DNA from: an uncultured Desulfobacteraceae bacterium
GTDB taxonomy: Bacteria > Desulfobacterota > Desulfobacteria > Desulfobacterales > Desulfatirhabdiaceae
NCBI GenBank assembly: GCA_903953895.1
Contig: CAJBLH010000095.1
Location: 1 to 58,398, forward strand
Length of the DNA stretch: 58,398 nucleotides
Reading direction: 5' to 3'
The notes under the pieces are model-generated. The model was not told the origin of the DNA. It searched no databases and saw only the letters and a list, made by a program, of their open reading frames with translations. Below are positions 10,410 to 58,398 of the stretch, one piece after another; position 1 is the stretch's first letter; each line of letters opens with the position of its first letter. Position numbers and translations under genes: made by a program.

Positions 10410-13400
10410 ATGTTGCCTGTGTCATATTCAAATAATGCACTGAAATATCTGGCAAGCGGGTTGTTGCTGTTGCTGGCATCCTTCCTGTTATTTCCATCTG
10501 CAGCTCTGGCAAATAAAACCCTGACCATGAATGTCAACCCGGCAGGCGCTGGATCGGTTTCTCCTGGGGCCAGCACCAGTCATGATAATAATGATACGGT
10601 CAGTATTTCGGCCACACCAACGGCGTGTTACACCTTTGTCAACTGGACGGGTGCGACAGTGTCAAATGCAAATACCGCTTCAACCACAATCAGCATGGGC
10701 AACGAGTCCCGTACCGTAACCGCCAATTTCGCCATCAAAACCTATTCGATTACCGCCAGCGCAGGCGCAGGTGGAACCATTTCCCCCTCAGGAACCGTAA
10801 CCGTGAACTGTGGCGACAGCCGCTCTTTCACCATTACAGCCAGTACGGGATATTCCATAGACAAGGTCACAGTTGATGGAACCGGAATCAATTTAAGCGG
10901 AACCACCTATACGTTTTCCGCTGTCAACGCCAACCACACGATCAGCGCCACATTCAAAGGAAGCAGCGGTGGCCAGGGCGGGATATCCTACATTCCAGGC
11001 TGTGCGGCCAGCACCTATACCAGCTACAGCGGCGGATTCAATTCGGCGGATTTCAGCATGACCAACACCGGGGTCTCCGATTCAAAAATCGTGCTTCAAA
11101 CCGGTTCCCAGTCGATTAACCCGAACAGCATCATTATACCGTTCGAGCAGGACGTGGCCGTAACTTTTCTGTACGAAAATGCCGGATTCAGCCAGAATGA
11201 TTTCGGCTGGATGCTGGCCGGCACAGGCTCCGGCGGCACAAAGCATGAAGTTTACCATGACGTTAACGACAATAATAACAACGGAGTGCTCGATGACCGG
11301 GAAGGAATCGATGCCAACGGAGACGGTGTTGTCAATATGCTCGACAACCGGGTGGTTCTGGGGCATTTTGCCGGCGGTACGGAACTGGTTTTTTATCTCA
11401 ACGTGGATCAACAAAGCTATTCCTGTTTTACCAAAACAGACTGGAACCCGGATGTATTTGCCGGCAGTTGCACCACGACCCCCGGTTTTACCAAGACGTT
11501 TGAACTGGGAAGCACCACGAGAGGCTTTGCTGTCTGCGGGCCTTCCCAATGGCTGGATACCGATGCAATCAACCGCCTGAAAGCCGCGCCGCTGAATCTG
11601 GACTTTACCACGACAACCAAACCCATTCCCATTACCCGCGGAGATAAATTCCCGCATGTGATGGTCGGCGCACCCGATGGCAAACCCAATGAATGGGTTC
11701 TGGCATGGGAAGATTGGAAAACCGGGGGCGACTACGATATTAACGATATGGTTTTTCGAATCGACCGCCAAACCGGAGGCAGCGCCCAGTTGCAGTCCGC
11801 CCAGGCCATTACGCCACTCGATACGGAGGCCTATTTTACGGCGGTGACCATCGAAGTGTATGACAACATGCCTTGCTCCGGCAGCACCCGGATCAAATAC
11901 TGGCTGTCGATCGATAACGGTGTCAACTGGGTGGAGATAACAGACTGGGATGTGGTGAAAACATTTACCGGTACCGGCAACGCCAAAACAGTGGGCAGCG
12001 AAGTTTCCGGCTGGTCGCCTGGAAACCCTGCTCAGACATACCGTCTGCGCCGGGTGGATTTTTCCGGGGGTGCAATGGTAGGCAGGCAACTTATCTGGAA
12101 AGCGGAAATGTTCAGTACCGATGAAAGCTGTGTTCCTGAAATCATCGATGTGGCTTTAAAAGGCAGCGTGGCCACGCATGGCTTTTTTTCCAGAGCCTCC
12201 CCCAGCGTTCAGACCAATATGCTGTATTCCGGAAATTATGAAACTCCGGCAATTTCCTGGAACGAAAAAGTACTTCGGGGGCATCTGAACGCCACCCGGC
12301 TGTATGATCCGGCGGTTCCCGGCCAACAGTCCATCCTGTTGCTGTGGGATGCCGGAACAGTGCTGACGGCCATGTCGCCCACCGATCGCACGATTTTCTA
12401 TCCCAACATTACCATGGGTGCTGTAACGCATGAGGCAATCGGCTCAGGCGACGGCACACGAACACACTTTTCCGGAACCCTTGCCCATCATCCCATTTCA
12501 GCCACGACGGTAACGATCACGGATTCTGTTGAAAACTTTCATGATAAACACACGGACGTCCTGGAAGGAGATCGTGGGGGAACCGGAACGATCAACCGTT
12601 TTACCGGCGTGTATGATCTGTATTTCAAAACACCTCCGACGGCAAACATGCCTGTCGTGGCCGATTACACCTATTATACCAGTTCCAGCAATCTGTATGA
12701 TTTTACAACAGCCAATATCACCAATACCATGCTGGCCCTGAATGACACGGTCATCACGGATAACACCGGCACCCACTATAAATATGATCTCAACAAGGAT
12801 AGCGTTTATTCCGAAGCGGATGGAGACTGGCTGGTCGGCTGGGTGCGCGGATACAAGGATGGCGTCAGCACGAAAAAAGAGTGGCTTCTGGGCCAGATTG
12901 ACCATTCAGTGCCCGCGGTTCAAACTCCGCCCGGCAGAGCCGGCTGGTACTTCGGCTCTGCCGTAACCGATCAGGAACGCAAAGATTTCGATGCGTTTGC
13001 TGAAGCCAACAAGGACCGTCAAACGCTGGTGTATGTGGGATCGCGGGATGGGATGCTTCATGCGTTCAATGCCGGGGCATTCAGATGGAAAGATTTTTCC
13101 GATGCATCTTCCCAATGGGGAGATAATCCCAAAACCGACTTTCTCGAGTATCGGGGCTATTTTGAATGGTCGGGCAACACATCCGGCACGGCCGACTATG
13201 GCGATGGAACGGAGTTGTGGGCATTTATCCCTGCCAATCTGATATCCCGGTTAAAAAACAACTTGATGTCCGGCGAAGACCAGGCTTATGTGGACGCATC
13301 GCCGACCGTCAGCGATGTCGTGATCGGCAGCACCTGGAAAACGATTCTGCTAAGCGCCGAAGGAAATGGCGGGGATACCGTGTTCTGTCTGGATGTCACC

Positions 13401-14435
13401 CATCCGCTCAGTCCGACATTTTTATGGGAATTCGCCGATCCCGATTTATTCCGAAGCCGGTCATCGCCGGCGGTTGCCGTTATCGGCCGCATCAACCCCA
13501 AGACATGGGCGGCTTTTTTTGTATCCGGGAAAACGTACGACGATACATTATATCCTTCTGTTTATATGATTAATATCGCTGATGGAAGCGTTATTCAGAG
13601 AATTTTTCTGGATTCGGTCAGTGCGGGCATCGGTGGGGTCCCCAGCGGTCAACCGGCTGTGGTGGATTCGGATGGTGACGGCTATGTTGATCGCATTTAC
13701 ATCGGTACGGACAAGGGCTATCTGTACAAAGTAAACATCCCAGGCGATCCCGGCAGTCTGAACAGCTATACCCAGTGTGTGATCAACAACGATTTTACCG
13801 ACAACTACAACGCCAGCATCGCCTCGAATCAGCGGTATCATCCCATTTATGCATCGCCGGTGGTTGTGGTTCAAAACACCTACGACGAAACAGGCAAAAT
13901 GGAATATAATATCAAAATCCTGTTTGGGACGGGAGACAGCCCATACTATGATGAATCCATCAATACCACGGACACCACGTATCATTTTTTTGCGTATGCC
14001 GATACCGCTGAAAAAGGGGTCTGCGACGACGGCAAGGTTACACTGGACTGGTTGTACGCGCTACCCGCCGGTCAGCGGATTTTTGCATCGGCATTTGCGG
14101 CCGCCGGCAGAATCTATTTTGGCACGTCCACATCGGAAACCGAAGACCCCTGCGAGGGTGCTGGAAACCCGGCATCCAACGCCGGCAAACTGTATGTGAT
14201 GGATATCAAACAATCGGGATCGCCTGCACCAAAATTCACCATCGATACCGGAGATATTCTGACAGCACCGGTGGTGGACGACGAGAATCTTTATGTCAAA
14301 ACCGGAAAAGGTTTTTATTTAACGAGTGGCCCCTATAACAACCCGATCATCGGCCCGCCTCTGCCCCCATCGATGGTTACCTGGCGGGAGATTTTTGATA
14401 AAGATCAGTCATTGAGCCCGACACAGACACCGTAA
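10410..14435 (+). CDS. pilY1: PilY1-like tip protein B with InlB-type repeats and DUF4114
   Basis: 1341 residues with a signal peptide (cleavage after SAALA). Two divergent InlB B-type repeats follow (about residues 35-110 and 112-182; VNPAGAGSVSPG and ASAGAGGTISPS, each ending in TANFA or SATFK). A DUF4114 region (about 250-470) has an EF-hand-like Asp/Asn cluster near 283-317 and the motif EDWKTGGDYDINDMVF. The C-terminal PilY1 beta-propeller is marked by VYVGSRDGMLHAFNAG, ELWAFIPANL and DSDGDGYVDRIYIGTDKGYLYKV, the last run carrying the Ca2+ loop near residue 1085. No VWA domain is seen, unlike tip protein A. I infer a pilus-tip adhesin with a different binding head. RBS AGAGGA precedes the start. 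Confidence 0.88.
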   Translation: MLPVSYSNNALKYLASGLLLLLASFLLFPSAALANKTLTMNVNPAGAGSVSPGASTSHDNNDTVSISATPTACYTFVNWTGATVSNANTASTTISMGNESRTVTANFAIKTYSITASAGAGGTISPSGTVTVNCGDSRSFTITASTGYSIDKVTVDGTGINLSGTTYTFSAVNANHTISATFKGSSGGQGGISYIPGCAASTYTSYSGGFNSADFSMTNTGVSDSKIVLQTGSQSINPNSIIIPFEQDVAVTFLYENAGFSQNDFGWMLAGTGSGGTKHEVYHDVNDNNNNGVLDDREGIDANGDGVVNMLDNRVVLGHFAGGTELVFYLNVDQQSYSCFTKTDWNPDVFAGSCTTTPGFTKTFELGSTTRGFAVCGPSQWLDTDAINRLKAAPLNLDFTTTTKPIPITRGDKFPHVMVGAPDGKPNEWVLAWEDWKTGGDYDINDMVFRIDRQTGGSAQLQSAQAITPLDTEAYFTAVTIEVYDNMPCSGSTRIKYWLSIDNGVNWVEITDWDVVKTFTGTGNAKTVGSEVSGWSPGNPAQTYRLRRVDFSGGAMVGRQLIWKAEMFSTDESCVPEIIDVALKGSVATHGFFSRASPSVQTNMLYSGNYETPAISWNEKVLRGHLNATRLYDPAVPGQQSILLLWDAGTVLTAMSPTDRTIFYPNITMGAVTHEAIGSGDGTRTHFSGTLAHHPISATTVTITDSVENFHDKHTDVLEGDRGGTGTINRFTGVYDLYFKTPPTANMPVVADYTYYTSSSNLYDFTTANITNTMLALNDTVITDNTGTHYKYDLNKDSVYSEADGDWLVGWVRGYKDGVSTKKEWLLGQIDHSVPAVQTPPGRAGWYFGSAVTDQERKDFDAFAEANKDRQTLVYVGSRDGMLHAFNAGAFRWKDFSDASSQWGDNPKTDFLEYRGYFEWSGNTSGTADYGDGTELWAFIPANLISRLKNNLMSGEDQAYVDASPTVSDVVIGSTWKTILLSAEGNGGDTVFCLDVTHPLSPTFLWEFADPDLFRSRSSPAVAVIGRINPKTWAAFFVSGKTYDDTLYPSVYMINIADGSVIQRIFLDSVSAGIGGVPSGQPAVVDSDGDGYVDRIYIGTDKGYLYKVNIPGDPGSLNSYTQCVINNDFTDNYNASIASNQRYHPIYASPVVVVQNTYDETGKMEYNIKILFGTGDSPYYDESINTTDTTYHFFAYADTAEKGVCDDGKVTLDWLYALPAGQRIFASAFAAAGRIYFGTSTSETEDPCEGAGNPASNAGKLYVMDIKQSGSPAPKFTIDTGDILTAPVVDDENLYVKTGKGFYLTSGPYNNPIIGPPLPPSMVTWREIFDKDQSLSPTQTP

Positions 14436-45892: not shown

Positions 45893-47137
45893 CTAGGGTT
45901 GAGCCAGCCAATTTGCAATCCTTTTTGTACGCCCGACAAGAAACTGCAACGAAGCATCGTTTTGCTGGTGCTTTTTCAAGGTGTGCCCATGTCGGCGCAG
46001 CACATCGACAAAACGAAGCGGGTAGCAGAAGTAAATCTTTATGGAATTCATCGGCACGGAATACTGTGAAGAGATAATGGCTTTTGGCAGAAAAACCCGT
46101 TGCCAGAAAATCAGGATTTTACTCCAGAGGTTTTTGCTTTCCAGAAGTTCCGCAAAAGGGACCGGAATTGAAAACACAAACTTACTGTCGGTAATAACCT
46201 GAGTTCGGGATGTCTCTAATATGGCTTCAGTTACATCCGATGGCCGCAGACGATCCAGGATATCGGCAGGAACATCCGCCCCAGCCAGTTCTGCCGCCAG
46301 TTGCAGTGACAGGTAAACACCTCGCTGCCAGCCCCATTGGACAGCCTGATTTGTGACAGCCTGCCAGTTGATGCCGGCACCGAAATGATCGATCGTTTCC
46401 GCGATATCGCAGGAGGGCCGCAGACCAAAAGCAAACTGGTGATGGTAGGACGTGTGCAGACAAAGATGCAGCAGCAGATCTTCGGGCGAGAGGGTCAGCG
46501 TATCACAATTGGCGATACGAACCGGCACGGCGCGATCCCACAGTCCACAAGGATCGATGGTGTAGGTTTCATTCGGTGACGTTACATTCCAGTGAATTTC
46601 AAAGCCTGCATGCCCATTTTTTATCATGCGGGGCAGATGATGCGCCGATTTCAGGGTGGTGTCCACACTGATGGGGCTTAGCGGCGTGTAGCCCATTTCC
46701 GTCAGAATTCCGGCAATTCGCGCCAGATCGGCGGGGCGGGCCAACACGTCGATGTCGTTCATTTCACGAACGCCTATGTTACCATAAACAGCGTCCGCCA
46801 GGAATATCCCCTTCAGCAGGATCAGGGGAATTCCCTCTGACTTGAGTACAGACAACAGCCGGTGCAGTTCACCATAAAAACGCAGATTGTGCAGGGTGTT
46901 TTGACGGAAGGCATCTTTGAATGTTTCGGCAGCCGCTGCGGGTACAAAAACATCCAGCCCCTTTTGCCTGAGCCGATGCCACAGCAGAGACAATACCCGC
47001 TGAGTCCTGGCCAAAGATAACAAATTATGCCAGCTCTCCAGAGAAAGATATGAAAGCCGGGTGATATCGACATTGGTTCCGGATTTTTTCAAGCACTCAA
47101 CCAGGAGCTGACAAAGTTCACAGTCCTTTATTTCCAT
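45893..47137 (-). CDS. nucleotidyltransferase family protein (PF14907 type), RiPP-cluster associated
   Basis: 414 residues from ATG 47137 (AGAGGG six bases upstream). The nucleotidyltransferase core is ILLKGIFLADAVYGNIGVRE followed by MNDIDVLAR (motif G-x-R-x-M-x-D-I-D), then HHLPRMI, FEIHWNV and LHLCLHTSYHHQFAFGLRP with conserved histidines. This family is common in lasso-peptide clusters with HprK-like kinases; in the Bacillus pseudomycoidin-type cluster the equivalent protein acts on the phosphorylated peptide. I infer a tailoring role here. It is separated from the exporter gene by a DUF4143 ATPase and an exporter remnant. Confidence 0.85.
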   Translation of the reverse strand: MEIKDCELCQLLVECLKKSGTNVDITRLSYLSLESWHNLLSLARTQRVLSLLWHRLRQKGLDVFVPAAAAETFKDAFRQNTLHNLRFYGELHRLLSVLKSEGIPLILLKGIFLADAVYGNIGVREMNDIDVLARPADLARIAGILTEMGYTPLSPISVDTTLKSAHHLPRMIKNGHAGFEIHWNVTSPNETYTIDPCGLWDRAVPVRIANCDTLTLSPEDLLLHLCLHTSYHHQFAFGLRPSCDIAETIDHFGAGINWQAVTNQAVQWGWQRGVYLSLQLAAELAGADVPADILDRLRPSDVTEAILETSRTQVITDSKFVFSIPVPFAELLESKNLWSKILIFWQRVFLPKAIISSQYSVPMNSIKIYFCYPLRFVDVLRRHGHTLKKHQQNDASLQFLVGRTKRIANWLAQP

Positions 47138-47325
47138 GGAGACCCTCTTGTATCGTAAGGCAATTCCGAGTAAACTCATTACACTTCGAGCGCATCTGCC
47201 GAGCCCATGACGCTTCGTAATGACCCCGTGCAGCCGGCAGATCGTCATGGCTGCCGGATTCAATGACACGGCCCCTGTCTATAACATGGATGATACCTGC
47301 CCGCAATGCCGTGTTGACGTGATGG
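47118..47325 (-). pseudogene. ABC exporter 3'-end remnant
   Basis: Reads NTALRAGIIHVIDRGRVIES, GSHDDL and GHYEASWARQMR, matching the end of the exporter encoded at 48686-50515 (TTALQADIIHVMDKGRIIES). Bases 47190-47312 match 48701-48823 at about 88 percent, and many differences are at third positions. Upstream of this the similarity stops and the DUF4143 ATPase gene begins. It is what remains of a paralogous exporter gene, or of a duplicated 3' end. Confidence 0.8.
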
Positions 47326-47348
47326 GGCTGGAAAGACTTTTCTCATGA

Positions 47349-48473
47349 TCAGCCCGAAGCAAACGCCATCACATTTTCACGATTGATCAGGCTGACCGGA
47401 CAATCAGGGTAGGCCGCGCTGAATCCGGTCGGAACCTTCATCCGTTTTTCGCGCCACTTGATTTCATATCCCTTCAACTCTCCGTTCCGTTCTTCCAGAT
47501 AGTCAATCTCCTGCTTCTGATGACTGCGCCAGAAATAAGTATTGGGAAATAGTTGTTGATTGTGGTTTCGTTTCATCCGCTCGGCGATGACAAAATTCTC
47601 CCACAGGCCGCCGACATCGTTACGCAACTCCGGTGGATTGAGGTTATTGATGACAGCGTTGCGAATTCCTGTATCCACAAAATATATTTTACGGGATTTT
47701 TTCAGTTCATTCCGCAGATTTCGGCTGAACGATCCCAGGCGGAAAATGACGAACGATTGCTCCAGTATTCGCAGATAACTTTCAATTGTCTTTTTATCGA
47801 CGCCCACCTGCTGAGCAAGCTCGTTATAGGAGACTTCGTTGCCTGTTTGCAACGCGACGGACTGCACCAGCCGCTCCAGCGCCTCGGGATTTCGTATCTG
47901 TTGGAATGTAAGAATGTCCTTGTAAAGATAGCTTCTGGCAATTTCCCGCAGCGCCGTTTCCGCTGCTTCCGGGGCGTTGATTATCTCGGGATAGAGTCCG
48001 AAGATCATACAACGTTCTACAATGCGGTTTAGCTCCAGCGGTGAATATTTCTGGCCGAGCTCCGTCAGTGAAAATGGATAGAGCCTGAATTCGCGTTTTC
48101 TGCCAGTCAGCGGTTCCTCTATCCGACTGGATAGCTCGAAGGCCGAAGAGCCGGTGGCGATCACCTGGATATCCGGCGCCGTATCAGTCAGAAGCTTGAT
48201 GGTAAGTCCGATTGTGCCGACCCGCTGCGCCTCATCGATCAGCACCAGTTTGTTGTTGCCGATCAGCATCTTCAGTTCGGTTGAAGTTTTATCCGAAAGC
48301 GCCCGGCGGACATCCGGCTCATCGCAGTTGAGGAAGAGGGAAGGAACGGCGGCGGCGTTCTGGATCGCCATGATCAGCGTGGTCTTACCCACCTGCCTTG
48401 CGCCATAGATGATGATGGCCTTCCCTTTGAACAGGGATTGCTCGATAGCCTCTTGAATCGTTCTTCTGACCAT
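47349..48473 (-). CDS. AAA ATPase with DUF4143 domain
   Basis: 374 residues from ATG 48473 (ATG 48485 also possible; no strong ribosome site). Walker A IIYGARQVGKTTL near residue 20, Walker B LVLIDEAQRV, sensor IATGSSAFELSSRI. The C-terminal DUF4143 region includes YLRILEQSFVIFRL, KIYFVDTGIRNAVI and a PD-(D/E)XK-like end FWRSHQKQEIDYLEE ... GYEIKW. These proteins are common mobile-like accessory genes of unclear role. It sits between RiPP genes but has no known RiPP function, so it is probably an insertion. Confidence 0.88.
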   Translation of the reverse strand: MVRRTIQEAIEQSLFKGKAIIIYGARQVGKTTLIMAIQNAAAVPSLFLNCDEPDVRRALSDKTSTELKMLIGNNKLVLIDEAQRVGTIGLTIKLLTDTAPDIQVIATGSSAFELSSRIEEPLTGRKREFRLYPFSLTELGQKYSPLELNRIVERCMIFGLYPEIINAPEAAETALREIARSYLYKDILTFQQIRNPEALERLVQSVALQTGNEVSYNELAQQVGVDKKTIESYLRILEQSFVIFRLGSFSRNLRNELKKSRKIYFVDTGIRNAVINNLNPPELRNDVGGLWENFVIAERMKRNHNQQLFPNTYFWRSHQKQEIDYLEERNGELKGYEIKWREKRMKVPTGFSAAYPDCPVSLINRENVMAFASG

Positions 48474-48685
48474 GACAATACCCATATTTATGATAATTTG
48501 AGGATCATGTTCCACATTATCGTGGTGATTGGGGTATTGCAAACGAAAAATAATTTGAAACCGCTTGATGACACAGTGGTGGAAGCCGGCCTGTCTTACG
48601 TGCGGTTCATGGCCGACCGGCTTGTCATCTCGCAAGTTCTTTCGTGGCTCATGTGTTTTCACGGTAATGATTTGATTTTAAGATA

Positions 48686-50515
48686 TTATACCCTGTCCTG
48701 GCGCATCTGCCGAGCCCATGACGATTCGTAATGACCCCGTGCAGCCAGCAGTTCTTCATGGCTGCCGGATTCAATGATGCGGCCTTTGTCCATAACGTGG
48801 ATGATATCCGCCTGCAAGGCCGTGGTAAAGCGGTGGGTGATGATCAGTGCGGTCCGGCCGGCGACCAGCCTTCGAAACCGCAGCAGCCAGTCCGCTTCCG
48901 CCCAGGAATCCATGGCGCTGGTGGGTTCATCCAGGATGATCAATCCAGCGTTTCTCAGAAATGCTCGCGCCAGGGCCAGGCGCTGCCACTCGCCCCCGCT
49001 CAGTTCGGCGCCGCCGAACCATTTTCCCAGAATGGCTTCATAAGTTGCCGGCAGACGGCCGATCGGTGCATCCGCCCCGGCGGCCCTTGCCGCCGCTTCG
49101 ATCCGCCCCCTGTCCGGACGGTTTGCGATGTCGCCAAAGGCGATATTGTTGAAGACCGTGTCATGGTAGCGGACCGGCTCCTGAAACAGCACGGTGATCT
49201 GCTGACGAAGCTCATCAATCGGCAGGTTTCTGATATCCGCGCCATCGATAAGCAGACAGCCTTTTTCCGGATCATAAAAGCGGCAGATGAGCTTGATCAA
49301 TGTGGTTTTGCCGGCGCCGTTTTCACCCACCAGAGCGGTGATCTGCCCTGATGGAATCCTCAGGTTGAAACCTTCCAGAGCAGGATAGCTGGTGTCGGGA
49401 TAGCAAAAAGTGACATTTTGAAATTCCAGTACTTTTTTCAGACCAGGATAAGGAACCAGCTTCTCCGGCAAACCAATCCGTGGCTTCAAATCCAGAAATT
49501 CAAACAGATTTTCTAAAAACATGATGTTGCGGTATATCTCTCCGGCACTTCCCAGAAGGGAGCGCATCATGCGCTGCCCTTGGTAAAACGCCTGATAAAA
49601 AAGGGCAAGGCCACCCAGCCCGATCGCACCGTTCAAGACCTGAAGCCCCATCCATGCCAGCGCACCGCCCATGCTGGCCAACCCGATGAGGGATGCCGTT
49701 GCATGGGCTGCAGCTTCACTGCGGACCAGATTCATCTTTTCCCGGCGCAGTCGCGCGCGTAACTCTCTGAAAAGAGATCTAAAATAATCACCCAGCCCGA
49801 ACAGCCGCATCTCCGCAGCCGATTGATGCTGGGTGAGCATCAGATCGTAGTAGCTGGTTTTACGGATGGCCGTGGTATTTTGAATCCGCCAACGATGGAA
49901 GCGAATCGTGTGGCTGAGTACGACCCAAAGGGCCGGAAGCGTACTGAAAAACAAGAGAAGGGGAATCCATATACCAAAGGTCAGCAGAACGCCCCCCATG
50001 GCAGCCAGGGTAATAAGGCTTTGCACCAGAGCGCCTGCATTTTCTATCAGGGCGGACGGCCGACTGAGCGCATCTACCCGGGCGCGGTGCAGTTGATCAT
50101 AGTATCCGGGATCGTCATAAAAAGAGAGATCCAGGCGCATGGCCTGCTCATGAATGAGCTCGTGAACATGGTCCTGCACCCGTTCAGCCTGAGCGGTGCG
50201 CACCCAGGCGCCGATGCTCTGGAACACTTCGCCAGCGATCAGCACCAGGGCCATTGCGGCACCCGCCGGGAGAAGCGTCGCCATGTTCCGCCAGCCGCCG
50301 CCCGCACCCACCATGGCGGCAATACTGTCCACCAGAGATCGGGTGAGATAAACCGTGGCAACCGGCAGCAATCCTTGAACCAGCAGCAGCAGCATCCAGA
50401 CGATGGCCTGCCTTCCCGCTGCATGTTGAACCAGTTGCATTGCCCGCGGCAGATAGGGAATCTGTTGTTTGAAACGATCAGTTACATCGGCAAACTGTTT
50501 GATTCTCGGGAACAT
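48686..50515 (-). CDS. ABC transporter, fused permease and ATPase (RiPP exporter)
   Basis: 609 residues. Six-helix type 1 exporter domain (about 35-330), then the ATPase: Walker A GENGAGKTT, Q-loop LFQEPVRYH, signature ELSGGEWQRLALARAFLR, Walker B LIILDEPTSAMD, switch ITHRF. There is no N-terminal peptidase domain, as in lasso-peptide D proteins, which export the mature peptide and give immunity. A second copy of its 3' end remains at 47118-47325. It follows the B2 gene on the minus strand. Confidence 0.9.
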   Translation of the reverse strand: MFPRIKQFADVTDRFKQQIPYLPRAMQLVQHAAGRQAIVWMLLLLVQGLLPVATVYLTRSLVDSIAAMVGAGGGWRNMATLLPAGAAMALVLIAGEVFQSIGAWVRTAQAERVQDHVHELIHEQAMRLDLSFYDDPGYYDQLHRARVDALSRPSALIENAGALVQSLITLAAMGGVLLTFGIWIPLLLFFSTLPALWVVLSHTIRFHRWRIQNTTAIRKTSYYDLMLTQHQSAAEMRLFGLGDYFRSLFRELRARLRREKMNLVRSEAAAHATASLIGLASMGGALAWMGLQVLNGAIGLGGLALFYQAFYQGQRMMRSLLGSAGEIYRNIMFLENLFEFLDLKPRIGLPEKLVPYPGLKKVLEFQNVTFCYPDTSYPALEGFNLRIPSGQITALVGENGAGKTTLIKLICRFYDPEKGCLLIDGADIRNLPIDELRQQITVLFQEPVRYHDTVFNNIAFGDIANRPDRGRIEAAARAAGADAPIGRLPATYEAILGKWFGGAELSGGEWQRLALARAFLRNAGLIILDEPTSAMDSWAEADWLLRFRRLVAGRTALIITHRFTTALQADIIHVMDKGRIIESGSHEELLAARGHYESSWARQMRQDRV

Positions 50516-50722
50516 TCAGGCTCTTTGTTATTTATATTGTAAAATCTTCGATTGAGCAGTTGTCTGAATACAATACAATCAAGGATTTGTTTTGAATATG
50601 TTTTTCTAAAAGAAAGGTTTTCCAAGTTTCCGCTGAGATTTAATTCCCTGAGAAAAGAAAAAATTGATTGCTCACTGCTATAGACTTTCTGATTGAGGTA
50701 TGTACGCAAAGAAGACGTGGCG

Positions 50723-51193
50723 TCAGGAAAACGTGGCAACCACGGTAAATTGCCGCTGGCTTGCCGCGCCGGTGAGGATAATATTGCCGCATCGAAGCCA
50801 GGCATGGGCCGCAAGTTTCTCCGGTATTGCTTCATCTTTTGCCACACCCAGATAGAGCGTGCCGGCGATATTTCGACGTTTGAGCATCCATTTGGCGGCC
50901 ACTGCCTGTGGCAGGCAGACGCTCTCCCAGGGGGTGTAGTTTGCGGCCGAGCAGACGGCCCGGCCCACTTTCCGGGCGATATTCAAATCTGAGGCACATA
51001 TCTGTGCATCCGCCTTGCGCTGATGTCTGCCCAACGAAACTGCCAGCCACTTGAACGGCAGGGCAAGCACCGTCAGGCGTGCGATGCCCAGCAGCAAAAA
51101 GGCTTCCACCAGAAGCAACCGCTCGGCGCGGGAGCGGCGGCGCCATTTGGCCGGTGCATCCTGAAATGTTTTAAACCATCCAGCATCATTCAT
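50723..51193 (-). CDS. lasso peptide biosynthesis B2 protein (leader peptidase)
   Basis: 156 residues. Transglutaminase-like cysteine protease of the lasso B2 family: catalytic Cys93 in SVCLPQAVAAKWMLKRR, then GTLYLGVAKD, His130 in LAAHAWLRCGNIILTGA, and the end FTVVATF. Two hydrophobic N-terminal segments (about 25-55) are usual. B2 removes the leader that the B1/RRE protein holds. The separately encoded B1 is at 57214, on the other strand and at the other end of the cluster. Confidence 0.9.
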   Translation of the reverse strand: MNDAGWFKTFQDAPAKWRRRSRAERLLLVEAFLLLGIARLTVLALPFKWLAVSLGRHQRKADAQICASDLNIARKVGRAVCSAANYTPWESVCLPQAVAAKWMLKRRNIAGTLYLGVAKDEAIPEKLAAHAWLRCGNIILTGAASQRQFTVVATFS

Positions 51194-51214
51194 CGGTAAA
51201 CGATCTTCCCGTTT

Positions 51215-51382
51215 TTATTTATATCCCTGATGCGGTGCCCCATCAAACAGGCTGAAATTTATCGCCTTTTTAATCTGGTCCAGGCTATTAAGAGGCGGCT
51301 GCCTTTCTTCTGGGATATTAATCTTACGCTTCTGTATTATGAACTCCTGTATTATGCGCGCAACATACGCCCGCATGCGCAT
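51215..51382 (-). CDS. 55-residue small ORF upstream of B2, alternative precursor candidate
   Basis: Starts at ATG 51382 and stops 21 bp before the B2 start. It has an Arg/Ile-rich N-terminal part, then RQPPLNSLDQIKK and AINFSLFDGAPHQGYK. If cut before Ala, the tail has an Asp at position 8 and 16 residues, which fits a lasso ring by size. However, the leader lacks the usual Thr at -2 and there is no good ribosome site. The plus strand over the same bases is also open for 55 codons (from 51230), so chance is possible. Confidence 0.3.
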   Translation of the reverse strand: MRMRAYVARIIQEFIIQKRKINIPEERQPPLNSLDQIKKAINFSLFDGAPHQGYK

Positions 51383-51797
51383 TTTCGTCAAGAATAATAC
51401 AACCGCAGGATGGACGACGGGTCTGGTTAAGGCGCCAATGCGCCAGATGGCAATATATCACATGGTTTCAGTAATTTTTGGCAAAGAGTAGAGTACAGAT
51501 AATGCTATTCTTGCGTCGTAACCATTCGCTCCCCCGACTTGCTGAACAGCACTGGAGGAGAATAACTTTCGTTCATGATCGATATGCGGCCCTTGTGTAT
51601 TTTACTTGCTTTTATAGTTTTTCTGAGATAAACAAAAAACAGTATCCAGGAGTTAGTAACATAGCATCTATCGGCATTATGGTGCGCTTTATTCTGCCAC
51701 AATCTACGCTTTTGCTCCACCACCACAGGGGAAGGAACCAAGAGGAAAGCGCATATTGTAACGATTTAGACAACACAGATGAATAAGGAGCAGGAAG
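51383..51797. other. divergent intergenic region of RiPP cluster
   Basis: Separates the minus-strand genes (B2, exporter) from the plus-strand precursors. On the minus strand TTGACG followed 18 bases later by TATGTT (near 51391-51363) could be a promoter for B2. No clear plus-strand promoter or known regulator site is seen. Confidence 0.3.
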
Positions 51798-51938
51798 ATG
51801 ATTGACGCTGAACAAGAGAAACGTATTGATATATTCACAGAAATCGATGCAACACCATCCCGCCGCCCATGGCACAAACCATCCGTCATGCGCATCGACA
51901 TTAAGAAAACACTTGCAGGTATTGGTAGTCCCCCCTAA
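51798..51938 (+). CDS. RiPP precursor peptide 1
   Basis: 46 residues with AAGGAG seven bases before ATG 51798. The leader contains SRRPWHKPSVMRIDIKKTL (residues 21-39), which resembles paeninodin-class lasso leaders (Y/W-x-K-P-x-x ... D-x-x-x-T-x) with the conserved Thr at -2. The predicted core is only AGIGSPP before TAA; it begins with AG-x-G like paeninodin (AGPGTS) but stops after seven residues, so no ring acid at position 7-9 is present. Downstream in the same frame, after two stops, comes a block (51984-52056) also conserved after precursor 2. Confidence 0.75.
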   Translation: MIDAEQEKRIDIFTEIDATPSRRPWHKPSVMRIDIKKTLAGIGSPP

Positions 51939-51983
51939 ATTCGCTCATTTATTATAACATATAGATATTTATAATATAAAATC

Positions 51984-52056
51984 GAGGAATACATCGACGA
52001 GTGTTTCATTGCTGCACAGTCGTTGAATATCTCTATGGCAGTAAACGGTCATGAAT
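51984..52056 (+). repeat. conserved 73-bp block after precursor 1
   Basis: 65 of 73 bases equal 52349-52421. It reads EEYIDECFIAAQSLNISMAV in the leader frame of unit 1, with no start codon of its own. Function unknown. Confidence 0.8.
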
Positions 52057-52173
52057 TTTTTCTCAAGGTTTACCCCCAATTATGGTAGAATGGTCTGATT
52101 TTCACGAACTTCAATAGACTATGACCCAACCATCTGTCGCCATGACACCTAAAAATGCAACTGAGAGGTTAGA

Positions 52174-52308
52174 ATGACTATCTGTAAGCAAAAAATCACA
52201 GAAAACTCAACAAAAAACCACGAAGCGCCATCCCGCCGCCCATGGCACAAACCATCCGTCATGCGTATCGATATTAAGAAAACACTTGAAATGGAAGAGA
52301 GTACCTAA
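52174..52308 (+). CDS. RiPP precursor peptide 2
   Basis: 44 residues; GAGAGG six bases before ATG 52174. It has the same leader motif SRRPWHKPSVMRIDIKKTL (residues 20-38). Over 60 bases the DNA differs from precursor 1 at only two synonymous sites, while the residues before the motif and the core differ completely. Core EMEEST, with Ser-Thr at the C-terminus where HprK-like lasso kinases would act. Too short for a classical lasso. Confidence 0.75.
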   Translation: MTICKQKITENSTKNHEAPSRRPWHKPSVMRIDIKKTLEMEEST

Positions 52309-52348
52309 GGCTGAGGCATTCGCTGCAGGGGATTTTTAGAATGTTGTA

Positions 52349-52421
52349 GAGGAATACATCGACGTATGTTTCATTGCTGCACCGTCGCTGATTATCTCTT
52401 TAGCAGTAAACGATCATGAAT
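52349..52421 (+). repeat. conserved 73-bp block after precursor 2
   Basis: Second copy of 51984-52056, here in a different frame relative to the leader (EEYIDVCFIAAPSLIISLAV). Confidence 0.8.
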
Positions 52422-52502
52422 CCTTAAAATGAAACTGCGAGGTTAGAACGATTGACTGTTAGCAGATAATATCCGGCTGATATTTCAGCATAAAATATAG
52501 AA

Positions 52503-52589
52503 ATGACTTCTCGCCGATCTTGGTATAAGCCGCCCGCCATGCGTTTCGACATTAAGGCAACATTGTACGAGGCAACGGCATATGTCTGA
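52503..52589 (+). CDS. RiPP precursor peptide 3 (shortened leader)
   Basis: 28 residues: SRRSWYKPPAMRFDIKATL followed by YEATAYV. A diverged third unit: the stretch 52426-52448 matches the region just before precursor 2 (21 of 23 bases), but the corresponding start codon is lost, so translation would begin later at ATG 52503, with no clear ribosome site. The core has two Tyr, possible sulfotransferase targets. Confidence 0.6.
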   Translation: MTSRRSWYKPPAMRFDIKATLYEATAYV

Positions 52590-52724
52590 ATTGGTACCGG
52601 ACTGTGGTGGTATATTGCTGTTCGGTCTTGCAGCGATAGGGCGGTTGAAGCGGTGCCTGGCCCGCCGGCACGGTCACTTTTGTTTCAAGTTTTTAAAACG
52701 GTACACCTAATCCATGGATCACCA

Positions 52725-54638
52725 ATGAATCGTATTTTCGGTTATTTACAGCGTGATAGCGCTTCAGTGGCGCCATTCACCATAGAAACCCAACGACTCA
52801 TGGATGAATGGACACTGGACGGCGGCGATGTATTGCGGAACGGCCCCGCAGCGATTGGGCAGATGATGAGGCGGTTCAGCGCGCCCGATACGGTGTATAC
52901 CAGGATTTCGCTATCTGATGCAGAGAGTATCCTTTTTGTGGCCGCCGGGCGCGTAGACAACAGACAAGAGCTGATTGCGAATTGTGGATCATGGGTTGCC
53001 GGATATGAAAAGTCTGAAATCCCGGATAGTGAAGTCATCCGACTGGCCTATAACAAGTGGGGCGAGGATTGCCCGAAGCGCATTTACGGAGACTGGTCTT
53101 TTGCCGCATGGCATCCCCGTGAATACAGGCTTTTTCTGGCCAGAGACCACTTTGGCAATACATCTCTTTATTATTATGCCGACCAGAATAAGTTTGCCTT
53201 TGCCTCCGATCGCAAGACATTGCTTGCCATGAATCTTGCTCCCATAAAGATGGATGAGCTCTATCTGGCTCAGGTGCTGGTCTCCTGGCCTGCTTACCAC
53301 GGCGAGCGTACCATTCACACGCCTATTAAACGCCTGCCGCCGGCGCATTGTATCACCATCACCCCTGAACGCATTGATGTGCGCCGATATTGGCGATTGG
53401 AAGATACCCCCGAACTGCGATTGGCTCGGCGTAATGATTATGTGGAGGCCTTTCGTGATGTCTTTGATGAGGCAGTGCGATGCCGGCTAAGAGGAGTCTA
53501 TGGTGGTGGAGATTCAGAGGGAAGTGGGCAAATTGCCGTATCACTCAGCGGTGGGCTGGATTCCGGATCGGTTACCGCCACAGCGGCGCATTTTCTGCGC
53601 AACGAGGGCAAACGCCTCTCCGCTTTTACGTCCGTGCCGATTTCAGATACCAGCATTTATGTAAACAAGAATTTTGGCGATGAGTTTCCTTATGCCCAGT
53701 CCACGGTACGATTTGCCGGGAATGTCGATCATATTCCCATCACCGCTACCGATATTACGCCCATTCAGGCAATTCGCCGCATGCTTCAGATTCTCGACGA
53801 ACCCGGCCGCGCCGCTGGAAATTTTTTCTGGTGGCTGGCTCTGGAAATGACTGCCCGCGCCCATGGTTGCCGTATTCTGCTAACAGGTCAGTTGGGAAAT
53901 TCAGGCATCTCGTGGGCTGGGGATGTACGCTCACAACCGCTCGCATTGCAATGGCGCCATTACGGCTGGCGGAAATGGCTCAAGGAAACCGCAAAGCACG
54001 TCTCCCCCTCTGTCTTTCTGAAGGCATACCGCCGGGCGCGAATGCCAAAAGATTATTCCTGGTGCCAATCATCTTCCATTCATCCCGATTTTGCGCGGCG
54101 ATTAAATCTGCTGGAACTCAGGTTAAACGATCCTGATGAGCATCCGCTTACGCCTCTGGAAAAGCGACTACAGACTCTCAAACCAGGCCGTTCTTTTATC
54201 GGTGCGCTGCATGCCCAGATGGGTGCGGCACACGGTCTGGAAATCTGCGATCCTACCGGGGATGCCCGTGTGCTGGCATTTACTATTTCCGTTCCGGACA
54301 GTATCTTCATAGACCCGAAGACAGGCATGGATCGCTGGCTGATTCGTGAAGCCATGAAAGGCCGCCTGCCGGATGATGTGCGTTTAAACCGCAAGAGAGG
54401 CCGTCAGGCAGGCGACCTGGTACCCCGCCTTCGCGCCTGCGCCGGAGAGGTTGAAACAGCACTGGACGAACTGGCAGCGGGGCCTGCAGCCGCCTATGTG
54501 GATGTACCCCATATGCGTACGGTGTGGACAATGATTCGAAACGATAACACGCCCGAAGCCTTCCACAAGTCGATTACCGTTCTTACCCGAGGCATCATGG
54601 CGGGATTGTGGGTGAATGAATTTTATCATGCTTCCTGA
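52725..54638 (+). CDS. asparagine synthetase-like lasso cyclase (C protein)
   Basis: 637 residues from ATG 52725; a GTG at 52653 is the longer option. The N-terminal glutaminase-like domain (FGYLQRD start) lacks the catalytic Cys2, as expected for cyclases that do not use glutamine. The synthetase domain has the PP-loop SLSGGLDSGSV near 272-282 and LLTGQLGNSGISWAG near 385-399, the lasso-C version of the asparagine-synthetase motif. It would adenylate a side-chain carboxylate of the core and close the macrolactam. The stop overlaps the next gene. Confidence 0.9.
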   Translation: MNRIFGYLQRDSASVAPFTIETQRLMDEWTLDGGDVLRNGPAAIGQMMRRFSAPDTVYTRISLSDAESILFVAAGRVDNRQELIANCGSWVAGYEKSEIPDSEVIRLAYNKWGEDCPKRIYGDWSFAAWHPREYRLFLARDHFGNTSLYYYADQNKFAFASDRKTLLAMNLAPIKMDELYLAQVLVSWPAYHGERTIHTPIKRLPPAHCITITPERIDVRRYWRLEDTPELRLARRNDYVEAFRDVFDEAVRCRLRGVYGGGDSEGSGQIAVSLSGGLDSGSVTATAAHFLRNEGKRLSAFTSVPISDTSIYVNKNFGDEFPYAQSTVRFAGNVDHIPITATDITPIQAIRRMLQILDEPGRAAGNFFWWLALEMTARAHGCRILLTGQLGNSGISWAGDVRSQPLALQWRHYGWRKWLKETAKHVSPSVFLKAYRRARMPKDYSWCQSSSIHPDFARRLNLLELRLNDPDEHPLTPLEKRLQTLKPGRSFIGALHAQMGAAHGLEICDPTGDARVLAFTISVPDSIFIDPKTGMDRWLIREAMKGRLPDDVRLNRKRGRQAGDLVPRLRACAGEVETALDELAAGPAAAYVDVPHMRTVWTMIRNDNTPEAFHKSITVLTRGIMAGLWVNEFYHAS

Positions 54639-55434
54639 ATTTCTTTCCGATGTCTCGGTTAACATCACTGCCGTTCCTACACAACTCAAGAATGCAACAT
54701 CTCGCGGAGTTCTCTGGCAGGCTGCACCTGGGCATTTTATGATCGATGTTCCAGAGACGGCGCGCTACCTGGTCGAAGAAGGAAAACGTGTCACGATCGA
54801 CCCCCTGCCATCGGCCGATGAAACGGATGTGTACCGTTTTCTGCGGATGACACCGCTTGCAGCGACTTGTTTTCAACGCGGCATCATTGCTTTTCATGCA
54901 GCAGCCATCACCGACATGAACGGCGCGGTCCTTATCGCAGGAGACTCCGGAGCCGGCAAATCAACACTGCTGGCGGCAATGCTCAACCGGGGATGGCATC
55001 TTCTATCAGACGATCTTGCGGCAGTGGATCTGGATGAAAGCGCAGCGCCGGTCGTTTTCCCATCTTTTCCTGAGATGTCTTTGTGGTCTGATGCGATGGA
55101 GAAATTGAAGATGGAGGGTTGCGGCGCCGGAAGGCATGTCCTGTCCATGGAAAACGAATTTATCGCATCCTCGCAACCACTGCAGGCAATTTACAGACTC
55201 TCGGTCCATCATGACGGGATTGCGGTATCCAACGTCGAAGGGGTAAAACGCTTCGATACACTCACCCTGCTCTCTTATAACACCCGCATTGCCGATGCCC
55301 TGTTCGATCGCACTGCATATATGCGCCTTGCGGCCGCCATCGCCCGGAATGTTCCCATGCGCAGTCTTCGCAGACCCCGCAACCGCTGGTGCGTGGAAGA
55401 ACTGGCGGATATTGTGGAAGGAAACTCTCGATGA
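54616..55434 (+). CDS. HprK-like kinase 1 (RiPP tailoring)
   Basis: 272 residues; start ATG 54616 or 54628, both inside the end of the cyclase gene. P-loop AGDSGAGKST (109-117), FHAAA before it, and LLSDDLAAV (129-137) for metal binding, as in HPr serine kinase C-terminal domains. In paeninodin-type clusters such a kinase phosphorylates the C-terminal Ser of the precursor. Its stop overlaps the next start (ATGA). Ends RRPRNRWCVEELADIV. Confidence 0.85.
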   Translation: MNFIMLPEFLSDVSVNITAVPTQLKNATSRGVLWQAAPGHFMIDVPETARYLVEEGKRVTIDPLPSADETDVYRFLRMTPLAATCFQRGIIAFHAAAITDMNGAVLIAGDSGAGKSTLLAAMLNRGWHLLSDDLAAVDLDESAAPVVFPSFPEMSLWSDAMEKLKMEGCGAGRHVLSMENEFIASSQPLQAIYRLSVHHDGIAVSNVEGVKRFDTLTLLSYNTRIADALFDRTAYMRLAAAIARNVPMRSLRRPRNRWCVEELADIVEGNSR

Positions 55435-56336
55435 CATTTTCTTACCTTCTTTATGGCCTGACCATAAGGCTTCCGCTACCTTGTAATTTCCTGCCACAAA
55501 TTCAGACTGTTTCCTCTCCGGATGTAACGGTGGATTACGGCCCGGTTCCCAAAGAACTGGTCGGCGCTACGGCGTCGAATGATACATGGGAAGCCGGTTT
55601 TAGCTGGCAGGCGTCTCCCGAACGATATCTTCTCAAGGGAGGCACAAGGTCCGGGCGATTTCTTGTGGAAGGTGGAACCCGGGTAACGGTGCATCGCAAT
55701 GCAAATGCCGAAGATGCATGTCTCTTGTTTCATCTGCTGCACCCTGTAGCCGCTGCGTTGTTTCGACAGAGAGGATTGCTGGTTCTGCACGCCAGTACCG
55801 TCCATACATCCGCAGGTGCTATAGCTCTTTGCGGTAAATCCTTGGCGGGCAAGTCCACCACCCTTGCAGCTTTGCTTCAGAATGGTTGCGAAATGATTTC
55901 CGATGATTTGACCATACTGAAACTTGCCGATAGCAGCAGCGTTGAAACCGTTTCGGGCGCAGCCCGAATATACTTGTGGGAAGACGCCGCACAGGGCATT
56001 GGTCTGAATCTGACCCAAAGCATCCGCCACCCCATGCGGCGCGCCAAAGCGGCCCTTTCACTTCCCGGTGAACCTTGCCGGAATCCGGCGCCCTTAAAAA
56101 AACTTTATATCTTGCAGCCCGCTGCATGTGAAGATGTAACTTTGTTACGTCTAAACGGCAGCGATAAGTTAGAGGCGCTGCTATCCTGCGTTTACGGCCC
56201 GCTTTTACCGGAGGAACATCCTGGTTTGTTTCCATTATTATCCTTTGCGGCCAGGCATACAGATATCTACCGCATCCAAAGACCCGAAAACCATTGGACA
56301 GTGGATGAGATCGTCAAGCGGATACTGAATGGGTAA
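55431..56336 (+). CDS. HprK-like kinase 2 (RiPP tailoring)
   Basis: 301 residues. LVLHASTVH (His120), P-loop CGKSLAGKST (134-143), MISDDLTIL (155-163), same architecture as kinase 1 and ending RPENHWTVDEIVKRIL. The two are diverged paralogs rather than a recent duplication. Two kinases in one cluster may act on different residues or precursors. Translationally coupled on both sides: ATGA with kinase 1 and an 8-base overlap with the sulfotransferase. Confidence 0.85.
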   Translation: MTFSYLLYGLTIRLPLPCNFLPQIQTVSSPDVTVDYGPVPKELVGATASNDTWEAGFSWQASPERYLLKGGTRSGRFLVEGGTRVTVHRNANAEDACLLFHLLHPVAAALFRQRGLLVLHASTVHTSAGAIALCGKSLAGKSTTLAALLQNGCEMISDDLTILKLADSSSVETVSGAARIYLWEDAAQGIGLNLTQSIRHPMRRAKAALSLPGEPCRNPAPLKKLYILQPAACEDVTLLRLNGSDKLEALLSCVYGPLLPEEHPGLFPLLSFAARHTDIYRIQRPENHWTVDEIVKRILNG

Positions 56337-57189
56337 AGTCATCTGGCTGGCATCCTATCCCAAATCAGGCAACACCTGGATGCGTGTTTTGCTGAGCAAC
56401 TATCTACAATACAGCACTACGCCCGCCGATATCAACAAGCTTGACGGCGGCCCGATTGCCAGCGCCCGTGTCTGGTTTGACGAGTGGGCGGGAATTGAAG
56501 CCTCCGCAATGGACGATTCCGTTATCGAGCGGCTGCGTCCCGATGTCTATCGCTGCATGGCAGGCGAATCCCCGGATACCCTGTATATGAAGGTCCATGA
56601 CGCATGGGGCCTAACCGACCATGGAGAAGCCCTTTTTCCCGCTGATGTTACTGCCGGGGTGATTTATATCCTGCGCAATCCGCTTGATTTGGCCCTGTCC
56701 TGCGCCCATCATTGGGGAGTGACCGTGGACAAGGCAACGGAGTTTATGTGCGATCCTGAATTTGTCATTGCGCGTTCGATCGGCGGACTGTCGGACCAGT
56801 TGCGGCAGTGCCTGCGTTCATGGAGCGACCATCTGAAAACCTGGCTGGATGAGTCGGGTCTGCCGGTCCATATCCTCCGCTACGAAGACCTTCTGGATGA
56901 TACCGAGGCTGCGTTCGGAGGGGTCGTTCGCTTCCTGGGTCTTCCCTATGACAAAGCGCGTATCCGCCAGTCCGTCGCTTTTTCGGATTTTTCCGAGTTG
57001 CAGCGCCAGGAGCGGGAAAAGGGATTTCGCGAGGCTTCGATGCAGGCGCCCGGACCGTTTTTTCGCCGTGGGAAAGCCGGTGCATGGCGAAAAGAACTGC
57101 CGATTGACCGGGTTGAACGTTTGACAAAAGCCCATGGCGCGTTGATGAAACGTTTTGGATACCTGAATGACAGCAATGAACCGATTTAG
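56329..57189 (+). CDS. PAPS-dependent sulfotransferase
   Basis: 286 residues. The 5'-phosphosulfate loop WLASYPKSGNTWMRVLLSNY at residues 6-25 (shown as landmarks SYPKSGNTW) and the 3'-phosphate site YILRNPLDLALSCAHHWG near 105-122. Cytosolic sulfotransferase fold with a C-terminal FFRRGKAGAWRKELP loop. It transfers sulfate from PAPS to a hydroxyl; inside this operon the likely target is a Ser, Thr or Tyr of the precursor. Overlaps kinase 2 by eight bases. Confidence 0.88.
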   Translation: MGKVIWLASYPKSGNTWMRVLLSNYLQYSTTPADINKLDGGPIASARVWFDEWAGIEASAMDDSVIERLRPDVYRCMAGESPDTLYMKVHDAWGLTDHGEALFPADVTAGVIYILRNPLDLALSCAHHWGVTVDKATEFMCDPEFVIARSIGGLSDQLRQCLRSWSDHLKTWLDESGLPVHILRYEDLLDDTEAAFGGVVRFLGLPYDKARIRQSVAFSDFSELQRQEREKGFREASMQAPGPFFRRGKAGAWRKELPIDRVERLTKAHGALMKRFGYLNDSNEPI

Positions 57190-57213
57190 CACGTTAACAA
57201 GGAGAGATCAGCA

Positions 57214-57495
57214 ATGCCTATTGGGTTGAACACACGGATTGTTCGCAATGAAAATCAGATGTCCGCACCGGTGGATAATGAAATCGTGATCCTGAACATG
57301 GCCAAAAACAACTACATCGGCCTGGATGAAATCGGCCGGTTCATATGGGATTTGCTGGCTGAGCCCAGCCGCGTGGATGAACTGTGCATCCGGTTAAGCC
57401 GCCATTTCGAGGCAACACCAGATCAGATCGCAACCGATGTGCTGCCGTTCATTGAAGAATTGGAATCAGAGGGGCTGATAAAAGTTCTGGAATAG
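57214..57495 (+). CDS. PqqD-like RiPP recognition protein (lasso B1)
   Basis: 93 residues with AAGGAGAG before ATG 57214. PqqD/RRE fold: VDNEIVILNMAKNNYIGLDEIGRFIWDLL and the C-terminal helix DVLPFIEELESEGLIKVL. B1 proteins bind the leader peptide and pass it to B2 and the cyclase. The last gene of the plus-strand operon; a G-rich tract follows at once. Confidence 0.9.
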   Translation: MPIGLNTRIVRNENQMSAPVDNEIVILNMAKNNYIGLDEIGRFIWDLLAEPSRVDELCIRLSRHFEATPDQIATDVLPFIEELESEGLIKVLE

Positions 57496-58058: not shown

Positions 58059-58398
58059 CTATATTTCAACGCCCAGTTCCCGCAGTTTGGATAAAAGCCT
58101 TTCTTTCTCTCTTCGTTCCGCTTCAGCTCGTTTGCGTTCGGATTCTTCATTTCGTATGGCGGCTTCAGCCCGCTGCCGCTCCGCTTCGGCCCGTTGCCGC
58201 TCCGCTTCAGCTCGTTTGCGTTCAAATGCTTCGTTTCGTATGGCCGCTTCAGCCCGTTGCCGTTCCGCCTCAGCCATTTGTCGATTGGTTTTTGATATCT
58301 TATCCTGCTCGATGGTACTGAGAAACCGAATACCATCCGGTCGATAGATGATCAGATCATCGGCTGTCAGCTCGAAACGGATATTCAACCTGGGGCTG
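58059..58398 (-). CDS. Uma2-family endonuclease, C-terminal part (runs off window)
   Basis: The frame is open to the right edge. It reads SPRLNIRFELTADDLIIYRP, DGIRFLSTIEQDKIS and then a coiled coil of AEAERQRAEAAIRNE-type repeats, ending REKERLLSKLRELGVEI. This matches the end of the Uma2 gene at 17553-18269 (LKIRFELATGDLAIYCPDG, ending RLAARLGELGIET). The nuclease core lies outside the window. Confidence 0.8.
   Translation of the reverse strand, partial: SPRLNIRFELTADDLIIYRPDGIRFLSTIEQDKISKTNRQMAEAERQRAEAAIRNEAFERKRAEAERQRAEAERQRAEAAIRNEESERKRAEAERREKERLLSKLRELGVEI

Follow-up and report, generated by a model that had tools for sequence, protein, structure and literature searches.

The 58,398-nt stretch analysed here (the window; contig CAJBLH010000095.1 of assembly GCA_903953895.1, from an uncultured Desulfobacteraceae bacterium) harbors between 45.9 and 57.5 kb a gene cluster for a ribosomally synthesized and post-translationally modified peptide (RiPP). 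We are nearly certain that its machinery is of the lasso type, of the kinase/nucleotidyltransferase kind resembling that of paeninodin and pseudomycoidin, and within this kind of a subgroup with a gene pair for a kinase and a sulfotransferase (K-ST pair). The three precursors, A1 to A3, possess cores of only 6 or 7 residues. The reading we favor, to which we give somewhat less than an even chance, is that these short precursors work and that the cluster specifies a pathway for minimal non-lasso peptides.

The Trp, Pro and Thr of the leader motif W..P...T are invariant in all 12 aligned precursors, including the three from the window, whose cores after the W..P...T-x leader read AGIGSPP, EMEEST and YEATAYV (7, 6 and 7 residues). 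The scan of contigs for related loci (numbered with L; genomes with G) covered at least 595 stretches. Cores were parsed from open reading frames (ORFs) of 25–120 residues; 52 rows from relatives passed the precursor profile, three unparseable ones were dropped, and the remaining 49 precursors from 40 loci have cores of 13–41 residues with a median of 22. Nine of these 40 loci had also been used to build the profile, and loci with precursors that it does not recognize are not represented. According to the automatic parse, an Asp or Glu occurs at position 7–9 in 40 of the 49 cores of relatives, compared with none of the three in the window. The rows without such an acid belong to L036, L051, L053, L059, L065, L075 and, three times, L100; in L100_1133 the parse placed the cut at a wrong Thr, and by eye this core has Glu9. 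A C-terminal Ser is present in 45 of the 49 relatives, while the window cores end in P, T and V. Lasso peptides usually consist of 16–23 residues with the acid at position 8 or 9 (passages of PMC4289311). Because the window cores have 6–7 residues and no Asp or Glu at positions 7–9, a standard lasso ring cannot form from A1–A3, as judged from their sequences. The first-pass annotation had described a lasso-peptide-like cluster with three precursors; the lasso-type machinery and the three leader-bearing ORFs stand, but a standard lasso product does not. As the lasso core was looked for and not found, the cluster is not classed here as a lasso-peptide cluster, though it works like lasso machinery.

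Profile and protein structure (PDB) matches agree with the first-pass annotation in the location of B1, B2, C, D, a PF14907 nucleotidyltransferase (N), two HprK-like kinases (K1 and K2) and a sulfotransferase (ST) of the type using 3′-phosphoadenosine-5′-phosphosulfate (PAPS), as well as in the assignment of B1 and B2 to opposite operons (Table 1). The two operons are divergent, with the precursors between them. The hidden Markov model (HMM) searches proposed at that stage for C and B2 were carried out: C is nearer to lasso cyclase (NF033535, its best NCBIfam model, 290 bits, which is below the cut-off of 525) than to asparagine synthase (154 bits), and B2 was recognized as NF033537 with 106 bits. 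In the alignment, C has kept the ATP motif SGGLDS. The N-terminal Cys of asparagine-synthetase homologues is needed for glutamine hydrolysis; this glutaminase Cys is absent from C, which therefore should not hydrolyse glutamine. B1 scores 60 bits against NF033536, under the cut-off of 80, and its PDB match is the lasso RiPP recognition element (RRE) TbiB1 (E 2e-8). TEG12, Teg14 and StaL are among the best PDB matches of ST. Both kinases score below the cut-off of 200 against HprK_rel_A (K1 48 bits, K2 29 bits), and K2 had no match in Pfam at 0.01; the His-Lys-Asp-Asp motif, as stated in PMC9266682, is kept in both. A1, the only precursor scanned in this way, had no match in NCBIfam or Pfam.

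Several observations support working short precursors. Over 19 leader codons, A1 and A3 differ with synonymous and non-synonymous proportions (pS and pN) of 0.61 and 0.18, respectively (Fisher p 0.004), and A1 and A2 differ by two synonymous and zero non-synonymous changes, a pattern that shows this 19-codon stretch to be under purifying selection. Between A1 and A2 it also has proportionally fewer differences than the 3′ flank (2/57 versus 16/90, p 0.0098). The core lengths of 7, 6 and 7 are oddly alike; in random trials, the lengths of three random-stop tails differed by no more than one residue in 0.8% of cases. Ribosome sites are present before A1 and A2. The enzymes keep most near-invariant residues and look functional in the alignments: changes were found at 0 of 19 such columns in B2, 0 of 12 in N, 0 of 2 in B1, 1 of 37 in ST and 4 of 40 in C. 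The occurrence of the same enzyme kinds in the orthologous cluster L132 (see below) and the lack of an alternative precursor in searches of the assembled genome also count for this reading.

Other observations weigh against it. No short core was seen among the relatives (minimum 13 in the 49 parsed rows), two further clusters found later are by eye long-cored as well, and the C-terminal Ser is missing from all three window cores. In 5–6% of trials, each of three random tails ends no later than codon 8, and the length and selection tests were picked after the data had been seen. A clear ribosome site is lacking before A3, whose 5′ part is degraded; aligned by eye to A2, the A3 upstream region has lost the start and contains an in-frame stop. 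The N-terminal leader parts of A1 and A2 are divergent. Moreover, the core regions of A1 and A2 align no better than shuffles (p 0.56), so that a shared short ancestor is not established, and the proposal of a short-core ancestor with homologous stops was dropped. On the enzyme side, C exceeds 66 of the 70 others in the number of near-invariant columns at which it deviates (the cyclases of L036 and L037 deviate at still more), K1 and K2 deviate at 3 each, and in K2 a near-invariant P-loop Gly is replaced by Leu (G152L). As a separate observation, A1 and A2 have 3′ flanks (51967–52056 and 52332–52421) that are 82% identical over 90 bases, though the core segments between are unalike.

The main rival explanation, which we consider rather doubtful, is that the cluster is a relict: its product was formerly a tailored lasso peptide of the sort that the related locus L132 (see below) is expected to make, the cores were lost, the leaders remain and nothing is made now. 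The uniformly long parsed cores of the relatives and the visible degradation of A3 speak for it, as do the disturbance of the other operon, where a DUF4143 gene separates two copies of the exporter 3′ end, and the lack of a C match at E 1e-45 in six genomes of the same genus (one of them 67% complete; at most three candidates scored in each). Yet in a relict the enzyme genes would have stayed open over about 10 kb and preserved most of their key residues, while all three tiny genes became coreless, and this explanation fits poorly with purifying selection on the leader stretch and with core lengths that are oddly alike.

It is unlikely, in our estimation, that a normal tailored lasso peptide arises from an unseen precursor, lost in an assembly gap, equipped with a too divergent leader or hidden by misassembly of the three genes. 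In favor of this explanation, the enzymes look functional and the genome is present in 315 contigs. However, when the own genome was searched by pattern and by profile, nothing but the three known copies and chance matches emerged (next profile match at E 2.55), a profile scan of the stop-to-stop frames of at least 22 residues in the window revealed no fourth precursor, and the listed completeness is 100%. A candidate fourth precursor at 51215–51391 (−), leader-like by eye, was rejected, as the list of the 26 best profile hits in the window frames does not include it. Apart from the three in the window, no short core was found among the profile hits in 389 genomes of the class and 317 of the phylum; the two samples overlap, the own genome is part of them, and at most 17 or 21 candidates per genome were scored. 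A lasso core regained through a frameshift, whether programmed or introduced by sequencing, is scarcely credible. Shifted A2 runs to 16 residues with a Glu at position 9, but A1 and A3 yield nothing comparable and 26–33% of shuffled sequences do as well; frameshift rescue, being no better than in shuffled sequence, was rejected.

For the reading that the short precursors work, we infer the following chemistry from the observed gene set, leader motif, core lengths and leader conservation. B1 would bind the W..P leader and present the peptide, K1 and K2 would phosphorylate Ser or Thr of the core (S5 in A1 and A2, T4 in A3), ST would add sulfate and N may attach a group of the sugar-phosphate type. 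B2 would cleave after T-L and D would export a small, non-lasso, anionic peptide. Because the A1 core offers no side-chain acid, C would either activate the C-terminal carboxylate, giving a 6–7-residue ring or joining another amine, or be idle. The fully specified mini-core pathway, in which hexa- and heptapeptides are phosphorylated and sulfated by the K-ST pair and closed or capped at the C-terminal carboxylate by the cyclase homologue, we regard as improbable. To our knowledge, such small tailored peptides are known from no characterized lasso pathway.

The K-ST pair extends beyond the window. Among the matches listed, C scores at least 100 bits in 96 loci, of which 11 carry an ST that likewise reaches 100 bits, as the window does too; 78 of the 96 came from the contig scan, and these contribute 4 of the 11. 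The 96 loci exclude the window and L042, which is the same stretch as L035 and also carries an ST; weaker ST matches were left uncounted (L038, 41 bits; L036, 29 bits; L137, 23 bits). In all 12 ST loci, including the window, the nearest kinase gene is located directly 5′ of ST on the same strand, overlapping it or at most 4 bases apart (full-length ORFs). The ST profile, run against 395 genomes, gave four at E 1e-40 (the window's own, G242, G300 and G169), of which G169 provides a thirteenth K-ST case on a contig of only 3.2 kb, too short to show a cyclase. The 13 places are distributed over Desulfobacterota, Bacillota, Pseudomonadota and Bacteroidota. We infer from these sequences that phosphorylation may be coupled to sulfation.

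The pair is not always found beside a full lasso set, because B2 was detected by profile in only 4 of the 11 ST loci (L106, L108, L132 and L133); the B2 profile found none in L035–L039, L100 and L105 within the stretches examined, some of which are short or cut. Both B1 and B2 were seen in 55 of the 78 contig-scan loci among the matches listed, and the proposed check for co-occurrence in relatives showed that most of these genes stay together. L035–L039 are five kinase-ST-cyclase-B1 loci from two Desulfobacterales genomes with no B2 by profile within 12–18 kb; their leader peptidase may be located elsewhere or be of another kind. Two of the K-ST loci have precursors worth recording. L100 (32–11583), from Pseudomonadales, has about five, counted by eye, that end in Ser, some with an acid at position 10 or later, and in L036 (9543–9800) a precursor has an acid at position 10 after T-E, possibly a non-standard core.

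The survey of Desulfobacterota for the same gene set that had been suggested yielded L132 (genome G242, of another Desulfobacterota family), with C-K1-K2-ST-B1-B2-D-N in a single operon. One precursor was found there, a lasso-capable one with a 16-residue core and Asp8. Its ST is the best match to the window ST, and the closest exporter relatives found are in L134 and L132, while its N is only distantly similar (45 bits); the closest N relative found is that of L064 (256 bits). In the trees, the window K1 groups with the L132 K1 (100/99), K2 with the L132 K2 and a Cyanobium kinase (100/99), and C with the L132 C (98/87) and then with Cyanobium (100/99). A recent kinase duplication is ruled out by these groupings at 100/99. 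As each kinase pairs with its L132 counterpart, two kinases are, on this phylogenetic evidence, an old feature of the lineage. With respect to C, 8 of 395 Desulfobacterota genomes have a match at E 1e-45 or better, and 8 of 389 genomes of the class have a match, the window's own included in both cases; at most three candidates were scored per genome. A Cyanobium genome (L041) carries the second-closest cyclase found among the matches listed, with 47% identity, which suggests a possible transfer between phyla. A mosaic origin of the B2-D-N arm is hinted at by bit scores (B2 nearest to L146, N nearest to L064); the B2 tree did not resolve it and we do not claim it.

The first-pass annotation had not recognized the combination of two kinases and a sulfotransferase from elsewhere. 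It is not confined to the window: L132 has the same two kinases and ST together with a nucleotidyltransferase, L100 has two kinases and a sulfotransferase, and a publication of 2014 already pointed to HPr kinase and sulfotransferase genes in the lasso clusters of anaerobes (a passage of PMC4289311). Excerpts of both PMC8498205 and PMC4289311 mention kinase and sulfotransferase genes as parts of lasso clusters. For paeninodin and pseudomycoidin, phosphorylation by such kinases is established, as is a hexose addition that depends on a nucleotidyltransferase homologue (sections of PMC8498205 and PMC9266682). No characterized sulfated lasso product was found in the literature searched, which covers few subscription papers. 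In PMC9266682 a term search detected no words that start with "sulf-", and in PMC13352647 none that start with "sulfo-"; the sulfation passage found in PMC12325987 is a reference title.

The paeninodin and pseudomycoidin clusters (A, B1, B2, C, D, K, N) share with the window the core enzymes and an HprK-like kinase, with a nucleotidyltransferase homologue in the case of pseudomycoidin (parts of PMC8498205 and PMC9266682). Their W/Y..P...T leader type is also found in the Bacillota relatives studied here. In contrast to them, the window has two kinases, an ST, B1 and B2 on opposite operons and three precursors with 6–7-residue cores without C-terminal Ser. The bsf lasso cluster of Bradymonas (A, B1, B2, C, D, K, N) is likewise deltaproteobacterial; it differs by a single kinase, no mention of a sulfotransferase in the passages concerned and a lasso-type core with Gly1-Asp8, and its kinase acts inside the core, on Ser3 (extracts of PMC10368454). 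L132 comprises the same kinds of enzymes as the window but differs by one operon, one precursor and the 16-residue core with Asp8. The clusters for linear polyphosphorylated peptides (LPP) share an RRE, an HprK-like kinase, a nucleoside triphosphate (NTP) transferase, an MsbA-like exporter and a non-lasso product, but have a signal-peptidase-like protease and a 45-residue core, whereas the window has B2 and C (LPP features from portions of PMC13381572). No signal-peptidase-like protease was among the matches of the nine large genes at 45.9–57.5 kb.

Table 1. Genes of the lasso-type cluster, with positions in the window.
Feature	Position	Strand	Evidence and remarks
N: PF14907 (NTP_transf_5) nucleotidyltransferase	45893..47137	-	Pfam 228 bits; GAGGG-type site before ATG 47137
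D: ABC exporter, MsbA-like permease/ATPase	48686..50515	-	PF00005/PF00664
B2: leader peptidase, transglutaminase-like	50723..51193	-	NF033537 106 bits (cut-off 33); PF13471
A1: precursor, 46 aa, leader ...PWHKPSVMRIDIKKTL, core AGIGSPP	51798..51938	+	precursor HMM (profile includes A1); AGGAG site upstream
A2: precursor, 44 aa, leader ...PWHKPSVMRIDIKKTL, core EMEEST	52174..52308	+	precursor HMM (profile includes A2); GAGAGG site upstream
A3: precursor, 28 aa, leader SWYKPPAMRFDIKATL, core YEATAYV	52503..52589	+	precursor HMM (profile includes A3)
C: lasso-cyclase-like asparagine-synthetase homologue	52725..54638	+	NF033535 290 bits
K1: HprK-like kinase	54616..55434	+	HprK_rel_A 48 bits
K2: HprK-like kinase	55431..56336 (ORF can start 55389)	+	HprK_rel_A 29 bits
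ST: PAPS-type sulfotransferase	56329..57189	+	PF00685 82 bits; overlaps K2 end by 8 bases
B1: discrete RRE, PqqD-like	57214..57495	+	PF05402 67 bits; TbiB1 E 2e-8

Two starts were chosen among alternatives: N likely begins at ATG 47137 rather than at 47269, as far as which its ORF is open, and K2 more likely at 55431. A DUF4143/AAA_14 ATPase gene (47349–48662) sits between two copies of the exporter 3′ end (47190–47326 and 48701–48837, 86% identical). This gene is probably not part of the pathway, and the duplicated exporter end is either an insertion with duplication or a remnant of a second exporter. Two DUF4143-type genes were also observed near the lasso-type locus of G483. Elsewhere in the window, the genes at 3394–6648 and 10410–14435 each encode a large protein with PilY1 beta-propeller domains, such as occur in type IV pilus loci, and at the contig end a charged repeat ORF contains an 84-base tandem duplication (85%) at 58114–58281.

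Working short precursors would mean that a leader peptidase and a lasso cyclase act on substrates unable to form a lasso, which would widen the scope of this enzyme family. Even if the precursors are dead, the kinase-then-sulfotransferase pair, adjacent in 13 of 13 places across phyla, is a concrete testable unit.

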